A stretch of DNA of 35,119 nt from a virus, in IMG/VR virus record IMGVR_UViG_3300009068_000096, positions 1 through 35,119 of that record; one strand, given 5' to 3'. Position numbers and translations under genes: made by a program. How positions within the stretch are numbered: the stretch's first letter is position 1; each line of letters begins with the position of its first letter. Shown in pieces: positions 1 to 24,570 of the stretch. Under the pieces are notes generated by a model. That model was not told where the DNA came from and made no database searches. It saw nothing but the letters and a program-made list of their open reading frames with translations.

Positions 1-3000
1 ACCCCCTTGGCTTTAAACGAATAAGCATAATCACCCAACGCCCTTTCAAAGCAAAGGAAGCGCAGTTGCTCATCGTTCATTTTCTTATGCTGCCCTTTTT
101 CCCTAAACTGTTTAAACAAGCCCTTGGCTTTCTGGGTAACCCATGAAGCAGCCTGTATCTGTCTGGGAGGGACATTGACCTTGCTGGCAAGTAACCTGAC
201 CATCTTCTCAGCAAGTTCATACTGAGCATCTGTCGGGGCATCTCTGTTGAACAGCATCCGAGTCATGTGCAGGTCGATAGTAGAGCGGCCTGAGTCCTTG
301 CCTTCCATTGCCTCCATCAGGTTCAAATAGAAGGTATTGGTTTTACGGCCTTCCCAATCAATACCAAAGTTCAAAAGATCGGATATCCTTTTATTCTTTT
401 GCTCCGTTGCCACCTTGATTGGCTTACCTTCGGCGGCTTGTTTCCAAGCGTTATACGTCATGGTGAAGTTAGCTTTGACTTCAGTAGCCGCCGATGTAAT
501 GGCAATGATCTGGAAGAACTTCTCAGCCAAGACTTTGTCTTGATTGAAGACATCAAGCACTGCCTTGGCAGACTTCTCATACCACTCGGCACCTTGGATG
601 CCATCATCCGCATACTGCTGGAGCTTTTTAACCCCAGCACGAACGTCAGCAAGGGTCTTACCGCTGGTCAGACCTGCAATACGATTGCCTATGTTCTTAA
701 CGATATCCTCAAGCTCTTTCTCGTAGATACGGACGCCCTTTAAATCAAAGGGTCGTTTGTCGCCGGAGTCATCTATGTTTAAGGAAAAGCGGGGAGCTTC
801 ACCAGTTTCCACACCCTCATAGCGCGGAGCATTGCCTTCAGGCGCAGCCCGAGTCGGGCGCATCTGACCCATCTCTACCCGTTTAAACACTTGATCAGCG
901 GTCTGGAAGCCAAGCCCTGAGAATTGATTGCCAAGGGACTCAAGGAAAGCTTTGATCTTGGCAAATATCCGACTTAGCATCCCGGGCGGAGTGCCGTTGG
1001 CGTTGAAGTATTTAAACGCATCAGCAATGGCTTCTTCGGTGATGTAGCTGTCGAAACCTTCCAAGTTGCCCTTGTCCTGTAGGTAGATCGCCTTGTAAGC
1101 CTCGTAAAGGCTTTTGCCATCTTGGGTATTGCGGTTCTTGATAAAGCGGTTAATCCAGTCCTTCTTGGCTGTGGATTCAAGAAGCTTCCATTCCTGATCC
1201 GTGAAAGCACCCAGTTCCTTCAAGGCATGGATCGTTTCGTGACGCAGGGTTGCCATCGGATTGGGGGCTGACAACGCAATTGCAATCAGGTTCTGAGCGT
1301 AGTAACCATCCCCAGAACCCTGTGCGCTCTCGATAGAGTCCATGATCCGCAGACCCGTTCCTTCTAGTCCTACCTGCTTCATAAAAGGCAGAAGGGTTTG
1401 ACGAAGGGATTCTTTGGCGGCTATGGCTTCCTGCGTTGGGACACTAGTTGGCGCGGCATCAACTGTTTCTTCTGCCTGTTCCAGTGTCGGAAAATAATAA
1501 AGCGGCTTACCGTTCTGAAAGACTGTAAACCCTTCGTCAGAAGATTTTGCTGGCCTAACCAGCAAAGGCGCAGTGAAAGATGTCTTCTTGGCGGTCAGTT
1601 CTTCAATGCTCTTTTGGATCGCAAGGTTGTCTTGGGCTACCTGTTGAGACAGGGTTGCATATTCAGGGGTATTGGCCTGACCCTCTGCCTCCATGCTTTC
1701 CACAGACAGATTGTTCTGGTCAGTCTTCGCCTGAAGCCCTTTGACCTCCTTGTCGATACCCTTAATCCCGTCCTTCCTAATCTCAGCCAGACGCTGGGCC
1801 TTTTGATCCACCTCGTCCATAGACATGGGCTTGGGCGACAGGACGGTATCCCCGGAGACAATATCAAACCCCTGCTGTTTAAACAGCCCTTGCTTGATGT
1901 CATAACCGGGCGGATACCCGGCATTGTTCCTCAAAGTGGTTATTTCAACAGGGACGACAGAGGCTTTATTCGCCTCTTCAGCGTTTAAACGCTCTGCTGC
2001 TTTGTCAGCAATTGCTTGTTCAGTCGTCCGAAACAGGGTGGTTCCATCCGCATTTTTGACATCAAAGAACGGGCTTATGTGAGCTTTTATGTCCCCATTA
2101 TCTGTGGCCTGTTTGACGTAGGAGCTGATCTCTGCTTCATCTTGGATACCGGCAGTCTTGAAGATGTCGGCAATCTTTTGGGCATCAGATATCCCAGCCT
2201 CTGGAATGTTTGCGCGAAGCTGCTCAATTGCGCTCCTATACTTGTCAGGATCGATCTGGGGCGCTTCTGGGACTATGGGTGAGGGTTGGGTAGCCTGAAC
2301 CGGTTGCGGGGCTTCTTGGGGCGCTCTAAGCCCTCCAGCCACGCCGCCAAAGCCAGCGCCACCAATTGCCGCCATACCTGCCGTAGCGCCCAAGCCTTGG
2401 GTCAGTTCCTGCTCTGGGCTGACCTGTCGCATCGCCACGTTCTGGGCGAACTTACCGCCCGTTTCTTCAGCCACTTCACTGGTCGCTTCGCCCAAAGCGC
2501 CTTTTGCAGCGCCTAGCAAACGACCTGTGGTGCCGGGAACCCCAGCAAAAGATTCTTCCAGAGTCTTGGCTCCGGGCAGTTTCTGGGCTAACAGGGAAAT
2601 TATTGCGCCTGAAGCACCTGAAGCACGGGCTAGGTTTAAAGCTTGGCTCTTAGCTTCTTCTTGCGGAGTGCCTTTATCCACCAAGGTTTTATAGACGTTC
2701 TCATATGTGCCTGTCCCAATGTCCGCGCCTTGTTGAACCGCACCTGCACCAATAGCCGCACGAGTTCCTGTTGTGCCAGCCGCTTGAGCGGCTTCTTCCG
2801 CAGCAAGACCAGCACCCAGCCCTTTACCCATTGTTAAGGCTTTACCCACCTTGGCAGCGCCAAATGGGACAATCATCTGAGGAGCTTGTTCAGCAAGGAA
2901 ACTGGTTAACAGAGCGGGGTCTTTGATGGTTTCACCGGCAGCAGTCTTAAAGGCTTCCCATTGCCCTTTCTTTTCTGCCTCTTGAATCCTTTGTGAGCGT

Positions 3001-3332
3001 TGAGCTTCCCGCTGTTTCAACGCTTCAGATTTCATCTCTTCGCCGGATTTGGCAATGCTTTTACCAAGGCCAAGTAGTCCGGTGTCTTCAAAATTACCAG
3101 TAGCTAACCCATAAAGCTGTCCCGGCAATTGAACCAAAGAACCAACGCCAGATGTGATGCCAGCACCGATATCTTTGGCAGCTTCACCAAAAGTTCTTTC
3201 TAGCGGAGCGTCTGGTTGTTTATTTGCAAAAGATGATGAAATTAAATTTTGAGCATCTTCTGGGCTTAATCCGGCAGGAACTTCAAATCGAGCAACCCTG
3301 CCATCTGGCATCTCGAAACGGGCTATAGGCAT
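1..3332 (-). CDS. Very large polyvalent-type virion protein with zincin (HExxH) domain, C-terminus outside window
   Basis: An open frame of 1110 codons starts at ATG 3332, whose A is the last base of the previous gene's TAA, and runs off the left edge without a stop. The N-terminal 350 or so residues are Ala/Gly-rich and helical with hydrophobic stretches, as in proteins ejected with phage DNA. A Gln/Lys-rich coiled-coil-like part follows. HETIH lies at residues 698-702 (bases 1227-1241), preceded by an LR pair and followed by an EEAIADAF segment about 70 residues on, the pattern of gluzincin-like peptidases in phage polyvalent proteins. The last 250 residues form another helical domain (a WYEKSAKAV region, then an ITSAATEVKANF region) that I cannot name. 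Known: such multi-domain proteins are usually packaged and injected. Inferred: it is an ejected protein that acts in the host early in infection. The substrate is unknown. Confidence 0.8.
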   Translation of the reverse strand, partial: MPIARFEMPDGRVARFEVPAGLSPEDAQNLISSSFANKQPDAPLERTFGEAAKDIGAGITSGVGSLVQLPGQLYGLATGNFEDTGLLGLGKSIAKSGEEMKSEALKQREAQRSQRIQEAEKKGQWEAFKTAAGETIKDPALLTSFLAEQAPQMIVPFGAAKVGKALTMGKGLGAGLAAEEAAQAAGTTGTRAAIGAGAVQQGADIGTGTYENVYKTLVDKGTPQEEAKSQALNLARASGASGAIISLLAQKLPGAKTLEESFAGVPGTTGRLLGAAKGALGEATSEVAEETGGKFAQNVAMRQVSPEQELTQGLGATAGMAAIGGAGFGGVAGGLRAPQEAPQPVQATQPSPIVPEAPQIDPDKYRSAIEQLRANIPEAGISDAQKIADIFKTAGIQDEAEISSYVKQATDNGDIKAHISPFFDVKNADGTTLFRTTEQAIADKAAERLNAEEANKASVVPVEITTLRNNAGYPPGYDIKQGLFKQQGFDIVSGDTVLSPKPMSMDEVDQKAQRLAEIRKDGIKGIDKEVKGLQAKTDQNNLSVESMEAEGQANTPEYATLSQQVAQDNLAIQKSIEELTAKKTSFTAPLLVRPAKSSDEGFTVFQNGKPLYYFPTLEQAEETVDAAPTSVPTQEAIAAKESLRQTLLPFMKQVGLEGTGLRIMDSIESAQGSGDGYYAQNLIAIALSAPNPMATLRHETIHALKELGAFTDQEWKLLESTAKKDWINRFIKNRNTQDGKSLYEAYKAIYLQDKGNLEGFDSYITEEAIADAFKYFNANGTPPGMLSRIFAKIKAFLESLGNQFSGLGFQTADQVFKRVEMGQMRPTRAAPEGNAPRYEGVETGEAPRFSLNIDDSGDKRPFDLKGVRIYEKELEDIVKNIGNRIAGLTSGKTLADVRAGVKKLQQYADDGIQGAEWYEKSAKAVLDVFNQDKVLAEKFFQIIAITSAATEVKANFTMTYNAWKQAAEGKPIKVATEQKNKRISDLLNFGIDWEGRKTNTFYLNLMEAMEGKDSGRSTIDLHMTRMLFNRDAPTDAQYELAEKMVRLLASKVNVPPRQIQAASWVTQKAKGLFKQFREKGQHKKMNDEQLRFLCFERALGDYAYSFKAKG

Positions 3333-22202: not shown

Positions 22203-22470
22203 GGTATCCTCCTCCAGCGGCTTTATAGCGTTTAGCCATTAATTGCGCTTTTCTCGCGCTCCATTTTCCAGCGCCGGTACCTTGAACCGCAGCAGCTTTG
22301 ACGCTATTGAAGATGCTTTTACGAAGCCCCGGCTTGGTGTAGTTACCCGCAGCATTAACCCCGCCGCCAGACGCATACTGGGTGAAATCAGTATTGTCGC
22401 GTCTGGCTTTGCGCTTACCTGTAGGCATTTTGTTGGGGTTCATATCCCCCATCCCACGGGAGGCTCTCAT
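22195..22470 (-). CDS. Small basic Gly-rich phage protein (GNYTKPxLR / WSARKAQ family)
   Basis: This 91-residue protein contains YASGGGVNAAGNYTKPGLRK and ends WSARKAQLMAKRYKAAGGGYRD, a pattern I know from small proteins in phage virion clusters. It is strongly basic and carries the Gly-Gly motif that recurs in this region. The start ATG 22470 shares a base with the stop of the Met/Lys-rich gene (TAATG). Its last Gly codons double as the ribosome binding site of the following 38-aa gene. The role is unknown. Confidence 0.78.
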   Translation of the reverse strand: MRASRGMGDMNPNKMPTGKRKARRDNTDFTQYASGGGVNAAGNYTKPGLRKSIFNSVKAAAVQGTGAGKWSARKAQLMAKRYKAAGGGYRD

Positions 22471-23891
22471 TAGCAGCGAGTCTTACCACGTTGAGCGATA
22501 CCGTCAGCACGGCGTGAAGCAGAGCTAACAGAACCACCGGTAGCCATACGCACCATTGTGCCTTTGGTTTTTCCATGAGACTCAATGCCGCCGCCTTTGG
22601 CATAGCTGGACATTCCACCCATATTCATTTTCTTCATAAACATAGGTTTGCCATCTTTCATGGGCATACCACCTTTTTTCATACCCATCATTTCCGCTTT
22701 TTCATGTTTCATCATGGATGCCGGAGCGCCCTTTTTCTTCATGAACGCCATTTCTTTGCCAACCATTGCTTTAGACTCTTTCATCATGCCCCCATCTCCA
22801 AAACGACGTTTTTTGATTGTTCCACCTTTTTTGTAACTAAGGTCTGTCCCAACATCCATGTCACGCGCTTCTTTTTTCATAAAGTTAGCATTCTTCAAAC
22901 GCTCATAAGCCGCATTAGCTTTATCTGTGTCACGATCAGAAGACCTAGCAGATGAACGAGCCGCGCCAGAGTCACCACGAGGCGCTGGCAATTGACGGCT
23001 TGCAGGAATGTATTCTCCGGCTTTAGACTCAGTAAGAAGCTTTGTTTTAGGCCCAGCAAGTTCTCCAGCCCTATACGTCTTTAATCCTTTATTTGCAGCA
23101 CTAGCAGCTTTAAGCCCCGCACCTACTCCCAAAGGCATAAGCGTCATAGCTACATCACCAAACTTTTCAGCATTTTCTGCTTTTTGTTCATCTGTAAGTT
23201 TAGAAGCATATCGACCACGACTTGCCATCCCAGTGGCTGCGCCGCCTCCAGTTTCACCAAACCTTCCTTTATCTGCTCTTTGGTTGGTTGTTTCGTCACT
23301 GTATCCCATGCGTTTTTTTGCAGGAGTTTCTTGAGCCGACGGAGCCGGATACCGTCTACGCAACCGTTCACCTTCATCACCATAATCAACAATGGCTTTA
23401 GGTTTGCGAACCGGTGCGGTAGCAACAGGTTTTCCACGCCCACCACTTGCTTCAGGAAGATCATCGCTATAATATTTATTTACCGTGGCTGGTGCATCCG
23501 GTTTAGCATCTTCTTTTGCGTCAAAATCAATGTTGCCAAGATCACTTGGTGCGCGAGTAAAACTAGCAGCCTTATCCGGCACAGCTTTTTTCATACGAGC
23601 TATGATATATGGATCGGTGCGATCCGCTCCACCAAGGTATTTTTCTTGTTCCTCTGAATACTGCTGCGCGGGGATATCCGCCGGATCAGGCATCCGATAA
23701 CCACCCTCAGTATCTCCACCCATAGCAAAACGTCGTTTCTTCATCATGCCACCTTTATTAAAAGTTTTACCTTTGTCAGCAGCATTGAAGTCTTTGCCAA
23801 CAGATTGAGATACCCCAACTTTCTTGGCGAATGAGGGGCTATGAGCTATTGCTGCCATGAAACGATGTTGCTTTGCTGATGTAGAAGGCAT
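22470..23891 (-). CDS. Met/Lys/Gly-rich virion-associated protein
   Basis: I place the start at ATG 23891: TAGGGA precedes it, and MPSTSAKQHRFMAAIAHSPS is the usual N-terminus of this phage family, whereas an upstream GTG at 23912 only arises from the endonuclease junction. The product is 473 residues: a conserved N-terminus, a KGGMMKKRRF motif, a long charged middle and a second copy of that motif (KGGTIKKRRFGDGG). A C-terminal block extremely rich in Met, Lys and Gly follows, ending SSASRRADGIAQRGKTRC. No enzyme domain is visible. The composition suggests a nucleic-acid-binding or internal virion protein. Confidence 0.78.
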   Translation of the reverse strand: MPSTSAKQHRFMAAIAHSPSFAKKVGVSQSVGKDFNAADKGKTFNKGGMMKKRRFAMGGDTEGGYRMPDPADIPAQQYSEEQEKYLGGADRTDPYIIARMKKAVPDKAASFTRAPSDLGNIDFDAKEDAKPDAPATVNKYYSDDLPEASGGRGKPVATAPVRKPKAIVDYGDEGERLRRRYPAPSAQETPAKKRMGYSDETTNQRADKGRFGETGGGAATGMASRGRYASKLTDEQKAENAEKFGDVAMTLMPLGVGAGLKAASAANKGLKTYRAGELAGPKTKLLTESKAGEYIPASRQLPAPRGDSGAARSSARSSDRDTDKANAAYERLKNANFMKKEARDMDVGTDLSYKKGGTIKKRRFGDGGMMKESKAMVGKEMAFMKKKGAPASMMKHEKAEMMGMKKGGMPMKDGKPMFMKKMNMGGMSSYAKGGGIESHGKTKGTMVRMATGGSVSSASRRADGIAQRGKTRC

Positions 23892-23899
23892 TTTATTCC

Positions 23900-24328
23900 C
23901 TAACACTTCCACGCTTTTAGCGATTTATCTAAGTATTCTTCCCATTTGGGACTGTTGCATGAAGCGTATAAATACTGTGCAGCAAATTCTAAAAGAGTTG
24001 GGTCGTCTCTAAAATGTCCAAGCCCACGGTTGCAATGATTGCAAAGCATACCTCTTACCTGTCCAGTAACGTGATCATGATCAACCACTAATTTGTCTTG
24101 AACGCCACAAATAACACATTTTGTTACGGTTAATTTTAAATCCGCTAGGGCTTCATCAGTAATTGCATTGCGGTACATTCCACGGCAGTTGGCGTTACGA
24201 TACTCATTTCGACAGCCACGACACCAACTATCAAATCCAGACTTTGTTTTGTTATGCAATGGGAAATTAACCGCATCAAGCGGTTTTATTTCTTTACAAC
24301 GAGTGCAAGATTTTGTTAGCAGTTCCAT
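23900..24328 (-). CDS. Endonuclease VII-type HNH nuclease, likely mobile
   Basis: This 142-residue protein resembles the recombination endonuclease VII family. It has four Cys pairs (C8/C11, C36/C39, C71/C74, C96/C99), the DHDH core at 83-86 (LVVDHDHVTG), GMLCNHCNRGLG and a helical FRDDPTLLEFAAQYL end. The family cuts branched DNA in T4, but many free-standing copies act as homing nucleases. Its ATG lies inside the last codons of the upstream gene, and its own C-terminus SLKAWKC copies that gene's SLKAWNC. Imperfect 24-bp repeats (24316-24339, 23900-23923) therefore bracket it. Confidence 0.9.
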   Translation of the reverse strand: MELLTKSCTRCKEIKPLDAVNFPLHNKTKSGFDSWCRGCRNEYRNANCRGMYRNAITDEALADLKLTVTKCVICGVQDKLVVDHDHVTGQVRGMLCNHCNRGLGHFRDDPTLLEFAAQYLYASCNSPKWEEYLDKSLKAWKC

Positions 24329-24339
24329 GCTTTTAACGA
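23900..24339. repeat. Imperfect 24-bp direct repeats bracketing the endonuclease VII gene
   Basis: Positions 24316-24339 and 23900-23923 match in 19 of 24 bases and encode SLKAWNC-stop and SLKAWKC-stop. One ends the upstream gene and the other ends the endonuclease, so the mobile gene carries a copy of its neighbour's terminal codons. Confidence 0.75.
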
Positions 24340-24570
24340 TAACGCTTTACGTGTGGGTTTACCATTTGGCTTCTTCATCGGCCCCTCCATCCCTGTCATC
24401 CTCGCACAAAAAGACTTCCTCCTGCCAGCGTCTTTTTCTGTTTTTGGATGGGGAGCAGGTGGTTTCAAACCGGGTTTGCCGGGGTTGGCTGCGTTGTATG
24501 ACGCCCTCCCCTTCGCGTTCAAACCACCTTTGGGGTTTTTGCCTTCTTTTCTTGTCCATGCTGCGCTCAT
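24316..24570 (-). CDS. Small basic conserved phage protein (RKSFCARM / RKALSLKAWNC type)
   Basis: This 84-residue protein begins MSAAWTRKEGKNPKGGLNAK. It contains GRASYNAANPGKPGLKPP and the highly conserved-looking RKSFCARMTGMEGPM and RKALSLKAWNC end. I recognise the pattern as a small basic family found beside virion genes in many phages (possibly DUF6321; the name is from memory). A conserved Cys-containing core and basic charge suggest binding to DNA or RNA. The stop TAA overlaps the endonuclease VII start. The C-terminal eight codons are the part duplicated at the other end of that gene. Confidence 0.8.
   Translation of the reverse strand: MSAAWTRKEGKNPKGGLNAKGRASYNAANPGKPGLKPPAPHPKTEKDAGRRKSFCARMTGMEGPMKKPNGKPTRKALSLKAWNC

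Follow-up and report, generated by a model that had tools for sequence, protein, structure and literature searches.

An endonuclease VII-type gene of tailed phages as a probable homing-type mobile gene replacing the 3' end of DUF6321

The mobile ORFs (mORFs) of fungal mitochondria are the closest known analogue of the phage locus described here. In these systems, a foreign C-terminus arrives together with an endonuclease ORF, and the native one, the C*-terminus, ends up downstream of it and is more similar to uninserted relatives than the imported end is (Beaudet et al, 2013; PMC3630166). The cases comprise atp6, atp9, cox2 and nad3 of Glomus, and atp6 of Allomyces, which that article cites and reviews (Beaudet et al, 2013; PMC3630166). 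In phages, F-CphI of cyanophage S-PM2 is a biochemically proven homing endonuclease of the DHHRN family with an endonuclease VII (EndoVII) motif, which cuts psbA at an intron insertion site; no gene-end replacement is reported there (PMC6083498). The Seg and Mob free-standing homing endonucleases of T4 are encoded by ORFs that overlap the upstream gene by 1-24 bp and co-convert flanking markers; they lie between genes and cleave at distances of hundreds to thousands of bp, and they are not described as bringing along a substitute 3' end and displacing the original one (PMC2988022). Insertions of homing nucleases can also split phage genes, as do mobE in nrdA of Aeh1 and mobA in gene 60 of T4, each of which divides the protein into two chains (PMC2988022), and free-standing homing nucleases of phages have been found at recombination boundaries as well (PMC10448857). 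Among open-licence papers, none was found that describes a phage gene whose end is replaced and its original end displaced, and none that reports on DUF6321.

We propose that an EndoVII gene of tailed phages is probably a homing-type mobile gene that replaces the 3' end of DUF6321 and leaves the displaced resident end behind the nuclease. As in the fungal mORFs, an imported C-terminus accompanies an endonuclease ORF and the native end lies downstream. Unlike them, the enzyme belongs to the EndoVII/DHHRN group and not to the mitochondrial LAGLIDADG or GIY-YIG families, its start codon lies inside the last codons of the target, and its ORF often terminates in the displaced end and its stop; given the different enzyme families, common descent is not expected. 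With F-CphI the locus shares a free-standing, phage-encoded enzyme with the EndoVII catalytic motif, and with Seg and Mob a free-standing nuclease gene beside a conserved gene, an overlap and co-conversion of the flanks. Like mobE and mobA, the nuclease gene sits inside a coding region, whereas DUF6321 stays one intact ORF whose end is replaced. If this reading is true, the end-replacement strategy of fungal mitochondrial mobile ORFs would also operate in bacteriophages, with an unrelated nuclease family, and it would explain how a nuclease gene gets into a coding gene with no need of an intron, an intein or a split protein.

The window, a virus record of 35,119 bases, encodes terminase, portal, head and tail genes. 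Its positions 1-3331 hold no long minus-strand ORF, unlike the densely coding minus strand elsewhere in the record. The three genes of interest lie on the minus strand, and a 60-kb IMG/VR contig (L082) carries all of them at 100% identity. The DUF6321 gene (24316..24570, 84 aa; PF19846, E 2.8e-25), which would be the invaded target, has a 3' part of type A (GPMKKPNGKPTRKALSLKAWNC) and is found intact and nuclease-free in many relatives. The EndoVII-type nuclease gene, the putative mobile gene (23900..24328, 142 aa; PF02945, E 1.4e-17; phrog_2633, endonuclease VII), overlaps its 3' end by 13 nt (24316..24328, an offset of -12). It is followed by a gene of 473 aa from the ATG at 23891 (22470..23891, MPSTSAKQHRFM...).

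The DUF6321 product ends in KALSLKAWNC and the nuclease in YLDKSLKAWKC, and the corresponding DNA segments form a repeat. Copy 1 (24316..24339, TCGTTAAAAGCATGGAACTGCTAA) comprises the last 8 DUF6321 codons, stop included, and holds within its Ala-Trp codons the ATG of the nuclease (24328-24326). Copy 2 (23900..23923, TCGCTAAAAGCGTGGAAGTGTTAG) is a DUF6321-like end in frame at the C-terminus of the nuclease (SLKAWKC and stop, with a K before). The copies are identical at 19 of 24 nt, four of the five differences are synonymous, and the only one that changes a residue is AAC/AAG (N/K). At least 19 matches to copy 1 were obtained in 8 of 200,000 random 24-mers from the same record, and the match in copy 2 falls in frame and exactly on the nuclease stop codon. 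Both the repeat and the position of the nuclease ATG within its first copy had been described in an earlier note on this DNA and are borne out.

The locus was compared with relatives gathered by scans of viral contigs, 332 distinct viral loci in all. In the nuclease-free locus L043, DUF6321 ends in NKSLRAWKC and the window's downstream gene follows at once; along 147 nt, the two versions of that gene agree at 84% of positions, in register with the L043 DUF6321 stop. Copy 2 and the next gene of the window are thus the counterparts of the DUF6321 end and the next gene in L043. Copy 2 is accordingly best read, leaning on such relatives, as an eroded displaced resident end, KSLKAWKC and stop. Over its 24 nt, it matches type A ends at a mean of 17.4 positions and NKSL ends at 15.4, only the Lys at -8 favouring an NKSL origin, and this 8-codon remnant taken alone is ambiguous, fitting type A or NKSL.

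The nuclease keeps the full DHHRN and zinc motif (C71xxC74, D83, H84, H86, R92, C96xxC99 and N100), with a D-to-R spacing of 9 and a D-to-N spacing of 17, the same as for D101, H102, R110 and N118 of F-CphI. The restriction enzyme Hpy99I is the nearest solved structure and the only sequence match in the PDB. Site-specific cleavage of alleles without the nuclease is predicted, with the NKSL allele as the predicted substrate. Nearly every relative of the nuclease lies directly after DUF6321 with the same -12 overlap. Of 138 nuclease-bearing genes, 124 have ATG as the start codon in the overlap, and the corresponding triplet is ATG in 46 of 126 nuclease-free NKSL genes, an excess which argues that the imported end supplies the start codon. 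Outside these loci, a scan of cellular genomes returned a single match, 37% identical, and the best EndoVII match among the phage isolates listed was 48% identical, with no obvious DUF6321 gene among its annotated neighbours. A distant EndoVII homologue (~32% identity) lies ~60 nt past the stop of an NKSL DUF6321 gene in L175, the end of which is not replaced; here the same spot may have been invaded independently.

The exchange can be seen directly in near-isogenic pairs. Upstream, the 5' part of DUF6321 included, L141, which bears the nuclease, and L169, which lacks it, agree at 98.1% (2070 nt) and 97.2% (1097 nt), and downstream they agree at 94.5% (199 nt). Between these flanks, the 3' ends of their DUF6321 genes agree at only 65%, and L141 alone has the nuclease. 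The pairs L149/L211 and L316/L425 show the same pattern at 89-93% identity, and L283/L415 and L300/L194 show it at lower identity; the direction, gain or precise loss, is not readable from any single pair. In the near-isogenic pairs, the right breakpoint always falls at the last codons and stop, whereas the left one shifts, from right after FCARM in L141 to more upstream positions in L149 and L316; such variation is what co-conversion would give. The locus is thus polymorphic for the nuclease at a single site, with flanks that are co-converted, as for homing endonucleases, and the sporadic presence of the gene at one insertion site, with absence there in near-identical phages, does not fit a Holliday-junction resolvase like T4 endonuclease VII that a phage lineage keeps as a core gene. 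A separate difference within the same pair is the 718-bp segment L141:3181-3898, missing from the otherwise 97-98% identical L169; it holds an ORF that resembles another HNH-type nuclease (VVDHIVPLRS...), possibly a second mobile nuclease nearby.

The position of the junction can be narrowed with the help of four loci, L027, L321, L330 and L383, which retain complete remnants of 27 codons behind the nuclease. Homology of these remnants to nuclease-free genes starts at, or a few nt before, MSG-MKKKL, just past FCAR, where the left breakpoint of L141/L169 also lies. These breakpoints suggest that the insertion or cut point is likely to lie ~85-95 nt upstream of the stop, at FCAR-MSGM, and not in the 24-bp repeat, so that the proposal of the earlier note that the repeats point to the probable cleavage site is not retained. 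Short repeats such as that of the window would then be eroded remnants. The homologous position in the window is at codons R57-M61 (FCAR-MTGM, 24388..24402, minus strand), as placed from these four loci and L141/L169, and by comparison with the other loci, the stretch from 24316 to ~24390 would be the replacement end brought with the nuclease.

The 3' ends of DUF6321 fall into type A (PTRKALSLKAWNC), type B with NKSL, type B with NKAL/NLAL, and type C (SRL..AR..W.C), and their distribution follows the nuclease. NKSL ends occur in 148 nuclease-free and 2 nuclease-bearing loci, NKAL/NLAL ends in 34 nuclease-bearing and no nuclease-free ones; the counts for nuclease-bearing and nuclease-free loci are 76 and 37 for type A, and 27 and 3 for type C. 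Even a scan with an NKAL query, which favours NKAL, still returned 78 nuclease-free NKSL loci and only 2 nuclease-bearing NKAL loci. Where the 5' parts of DUF6321 are near-identical, the end type differs in 9 of 11 pairs discordant for the nuclease and in none of 35 concordant pairs (Fisher p 5e-8, the pairs being not all independent). It could be supposed that the 3' end of DUF6321 is a general hotspot for phage recombinases, with the EndoVII gene a passenger and not the cause, and the end type does change 30 times on the nuclease tree. In addition, other end swaps exist: in the nuclease-free L061, L067, L074, L075 and L078, DUF6321 runs into GKTKGRMV-type tails, which resemble the C-terminus of other proteins in those phages, where other kinds of C-terminal shuffling thus seem to occur. 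We nevertheless regard a hotspot as unlikely, since the end type is constant in 20 of 20 pairs of nuclease-free close neighbours by their 5' parts, swaps track the presence of the nuclease, and the enzyme retains every catalytic residue. The end and the nuclease are not inseparable, as the nucleases of L141 and L149 are 96% identical yet stand behind different end types. As a test of co-travel, the windowed correlation between DUF6321 and nuclease distances was weak: for type A it climbs slightly on approaching the 3' end (rho ~0.3 to 0.5, control 0.37), and no 3' rise was found for NKAL.

Nuclease presence is scattered: a tree built from the 5' part of DUF6321 (165 columns, unrooted) requires 45 changes, at least 19 of them forced by supported branches, as against 97 with shuffled labels. 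A reading in which the nuclease-bearing state is ancestral, and NKSL genes arose when the DUF6321 body recombined with the remnant downstream and so excised the nuclease, would turn gain into loss. Losses do occur: in L014 and L015, an L111-like nuclease has been cut by an internal deletion to ~28 nt at each end, and as their DUF6321 is identical to that of L111 at 247 of 252 nt, this is clearly a recent loss event; L012 compared with L089 even resembles an excision product, with a type A body and last nucleotides like copy 2. Against loss as the general direction, NKSL ends dominate and are the pool from which the remnants come, and precise excision needs long remnants, which are rare. Furthermore, the deletion of L014/L015 excepted, a search of 188 downstream stretches from nuclease-free loci found no nuclease remnant of this kind; for the NKSL genes, this speaks for gain and against excision, and we give ancestral presence with excision a low probability.

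A profile scan detected a remnant of a DUF6321 end in 36 of 139 nuclease-bearing loci, 126 control windows supplying the threshold, their 99th percentile; 35 of the scores exceed the control maximum, and the other 103 loci have no remnant above the threshold. Remnants take the form of a full 27-codon piece, an in-frame C-terminal extension, an out-of-frame stretch, or the last codons and stop only. In 19 loci they lie in frame at the nuclease stop, and elsewhere they overlap the nuclease out of frame or sit downstream of it, a variety which indicates a scar in the DNA rather than a tag on the protein. The C-termini of the nucleases are correspondingly variable, and the nearest relatives of the window's enzyme (L083-L088, 87-92% identical) have no in-frame SLKAWKC; a DUF6321-like end (SLRAWKC or LRAWNC, and stop) is present in another frame in L083, L084, L085, L087 and L090, and EPSGLEMLG is such a stretch read one base off.

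The long remnants are of NKSL type (L027, L321, L330, L383, L105, L133/L135/L139/L144, L254, L089 and L392), and in the same genomes the end before the nuclease is of type A, C or NKAL/NLAL. The tail is thus not a copy of the neighbour's end. The displaced ends resemble uninserted relatives more than the imported end, by allele type, and the arrangement typical of mORFs, an imported end before the nuclease and the native end behind it, is found in L027, L321, L330, L383, L105, L254 and the L133 group. These loci also bear on local duplication, in which, after insertion, a copy of the DUF6321 end of the same genome would have replaced the 3' end of the nuclease or become fused to it. In the window, the agreement at 19 of 24 nt would suit such a copy, and copy 2 matches type A as well as it does any NKSL end. 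At the level of the family, duplication is refuted by the different allele types of the two copies: copy 2 is NKSL and copy 1 type A, NLAL or C in L089, L105, L133/L135/L139/L144 and L254, the complete remnants span 27 codons of an allele unlike copy 1, and the sequence past copy 2 is continuous with the resident locus. We consider duplication improbable; for the window, whose own 24 nt would allow it, this judgement leans on the relatives. The earlier note had proposed that a mobile gene invades the 3' end of a gene and rebuilds it; the insertion is upheld by the near-isogenic pairs and the continuity with L043, as are the rebuilt upstream gene and the kept overlap. The view of the nuclease tail as a copy of the neighbour's last codons describes the similarity well but has to be given up as an account of the origin. 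Uninserted relatives keep one copy of the end, and neither uninserted junctions lacking it nor nuclease homologues elsewhere with the same C-terminus were found.

A functional C-terminal peptide, in which the W-x-C tail is a selected motif common to DUF6321 and the nuclease (e.g. a virion-targeting or partner-binding tag), is very improbable and was dropped, for although Cys is the last residue in 61 of the 140 nuclease ORFs tallied, the 19 in-frame cases end in a DUF6321-like tail and DUF6321 is the C-terminal domain of several large phage proteins, the tail is out of frame in L083, L085, L087, L090, L153, L156 and L392, is a separate downstream piece in L321 and L330, and is lacking from many close nucleases. 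Since the closest kin of the window's enzyme, 88-92% identical, carry it out of frame, the tail is dispensable to the nuclease.

We therefore return to a homing-type gene that replaces the end of its target. The comparison of loci, as an argument from sequence, demonstrates nuclease-coupled end replacement, displaced remnants, exact downstream continuity, scattered presence and occasional loss, from which we infer cleavage and homing by the nuclease. The travelling unit would consist of a replacement DUF6321 3' end, with the start codon of the nuclease, the nuclease ORF and often a remnant of a displaced end. A nuclease-free resident would have an NKSL-type 3' end that extends ~28 codons past FCAR, and the nuclease may cut it near FCAR-MSGM. 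Repair from a nuclease-bearing genome would then copy in the imported end and the nuclease, as the breakpoints suggest, joining the resident 5' part to the imported end, so that DUF6321 would stay intact and be followed by a nuclease with an overlapping start. The resident's own end, which the comparison places behind the nuclease, would erode there; often it would supply the nuclease stop codon, as in the 19 in-frame cases, and the remnant may provide homology on the right-hand side when the unit is next transferred. The imported end, which differs from NKSL throughout the interval, is presumed to resist the nuclease. It can tentatively be hypothesised, with less confidence than the replacement itself, that this is a selfish family of phage nucleases that spreads by 3'-end replacement of one host gene, the imported end restoring the gene and giving a start and immunity, and the displaced end giving a stop and a homology arm. 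Such a scheme would provide a precise candidate target (FCAR-MSGM in NKSL-type DUF6321) along with natural candidates for resistant and sensitive alleles, and would account for the erratic C-termini in annotations of phage EndoVII and for the hybrid 3' ends of DUF6321.

Two further observations concern the ends themselves. The nuclease-bearing NKAL/NLAL ends differ recurrently from NKSL, with GM changed to GH or GA, KKKL to KKKN, and NKSL to NKAL or NLAL, as if these changes were selected for resistance to the nuclease. A Shine-Dalgarno cause for the Ser-to-Ala change was considered and rejected as not general, the anti-SD energies being stronger in C and NKAL and weak in A. Finally, the ATG of the displaced end overlaps the nuclease stop (ATGA) in L027 and L383, and the end reads there as an ORF of 27 aa.
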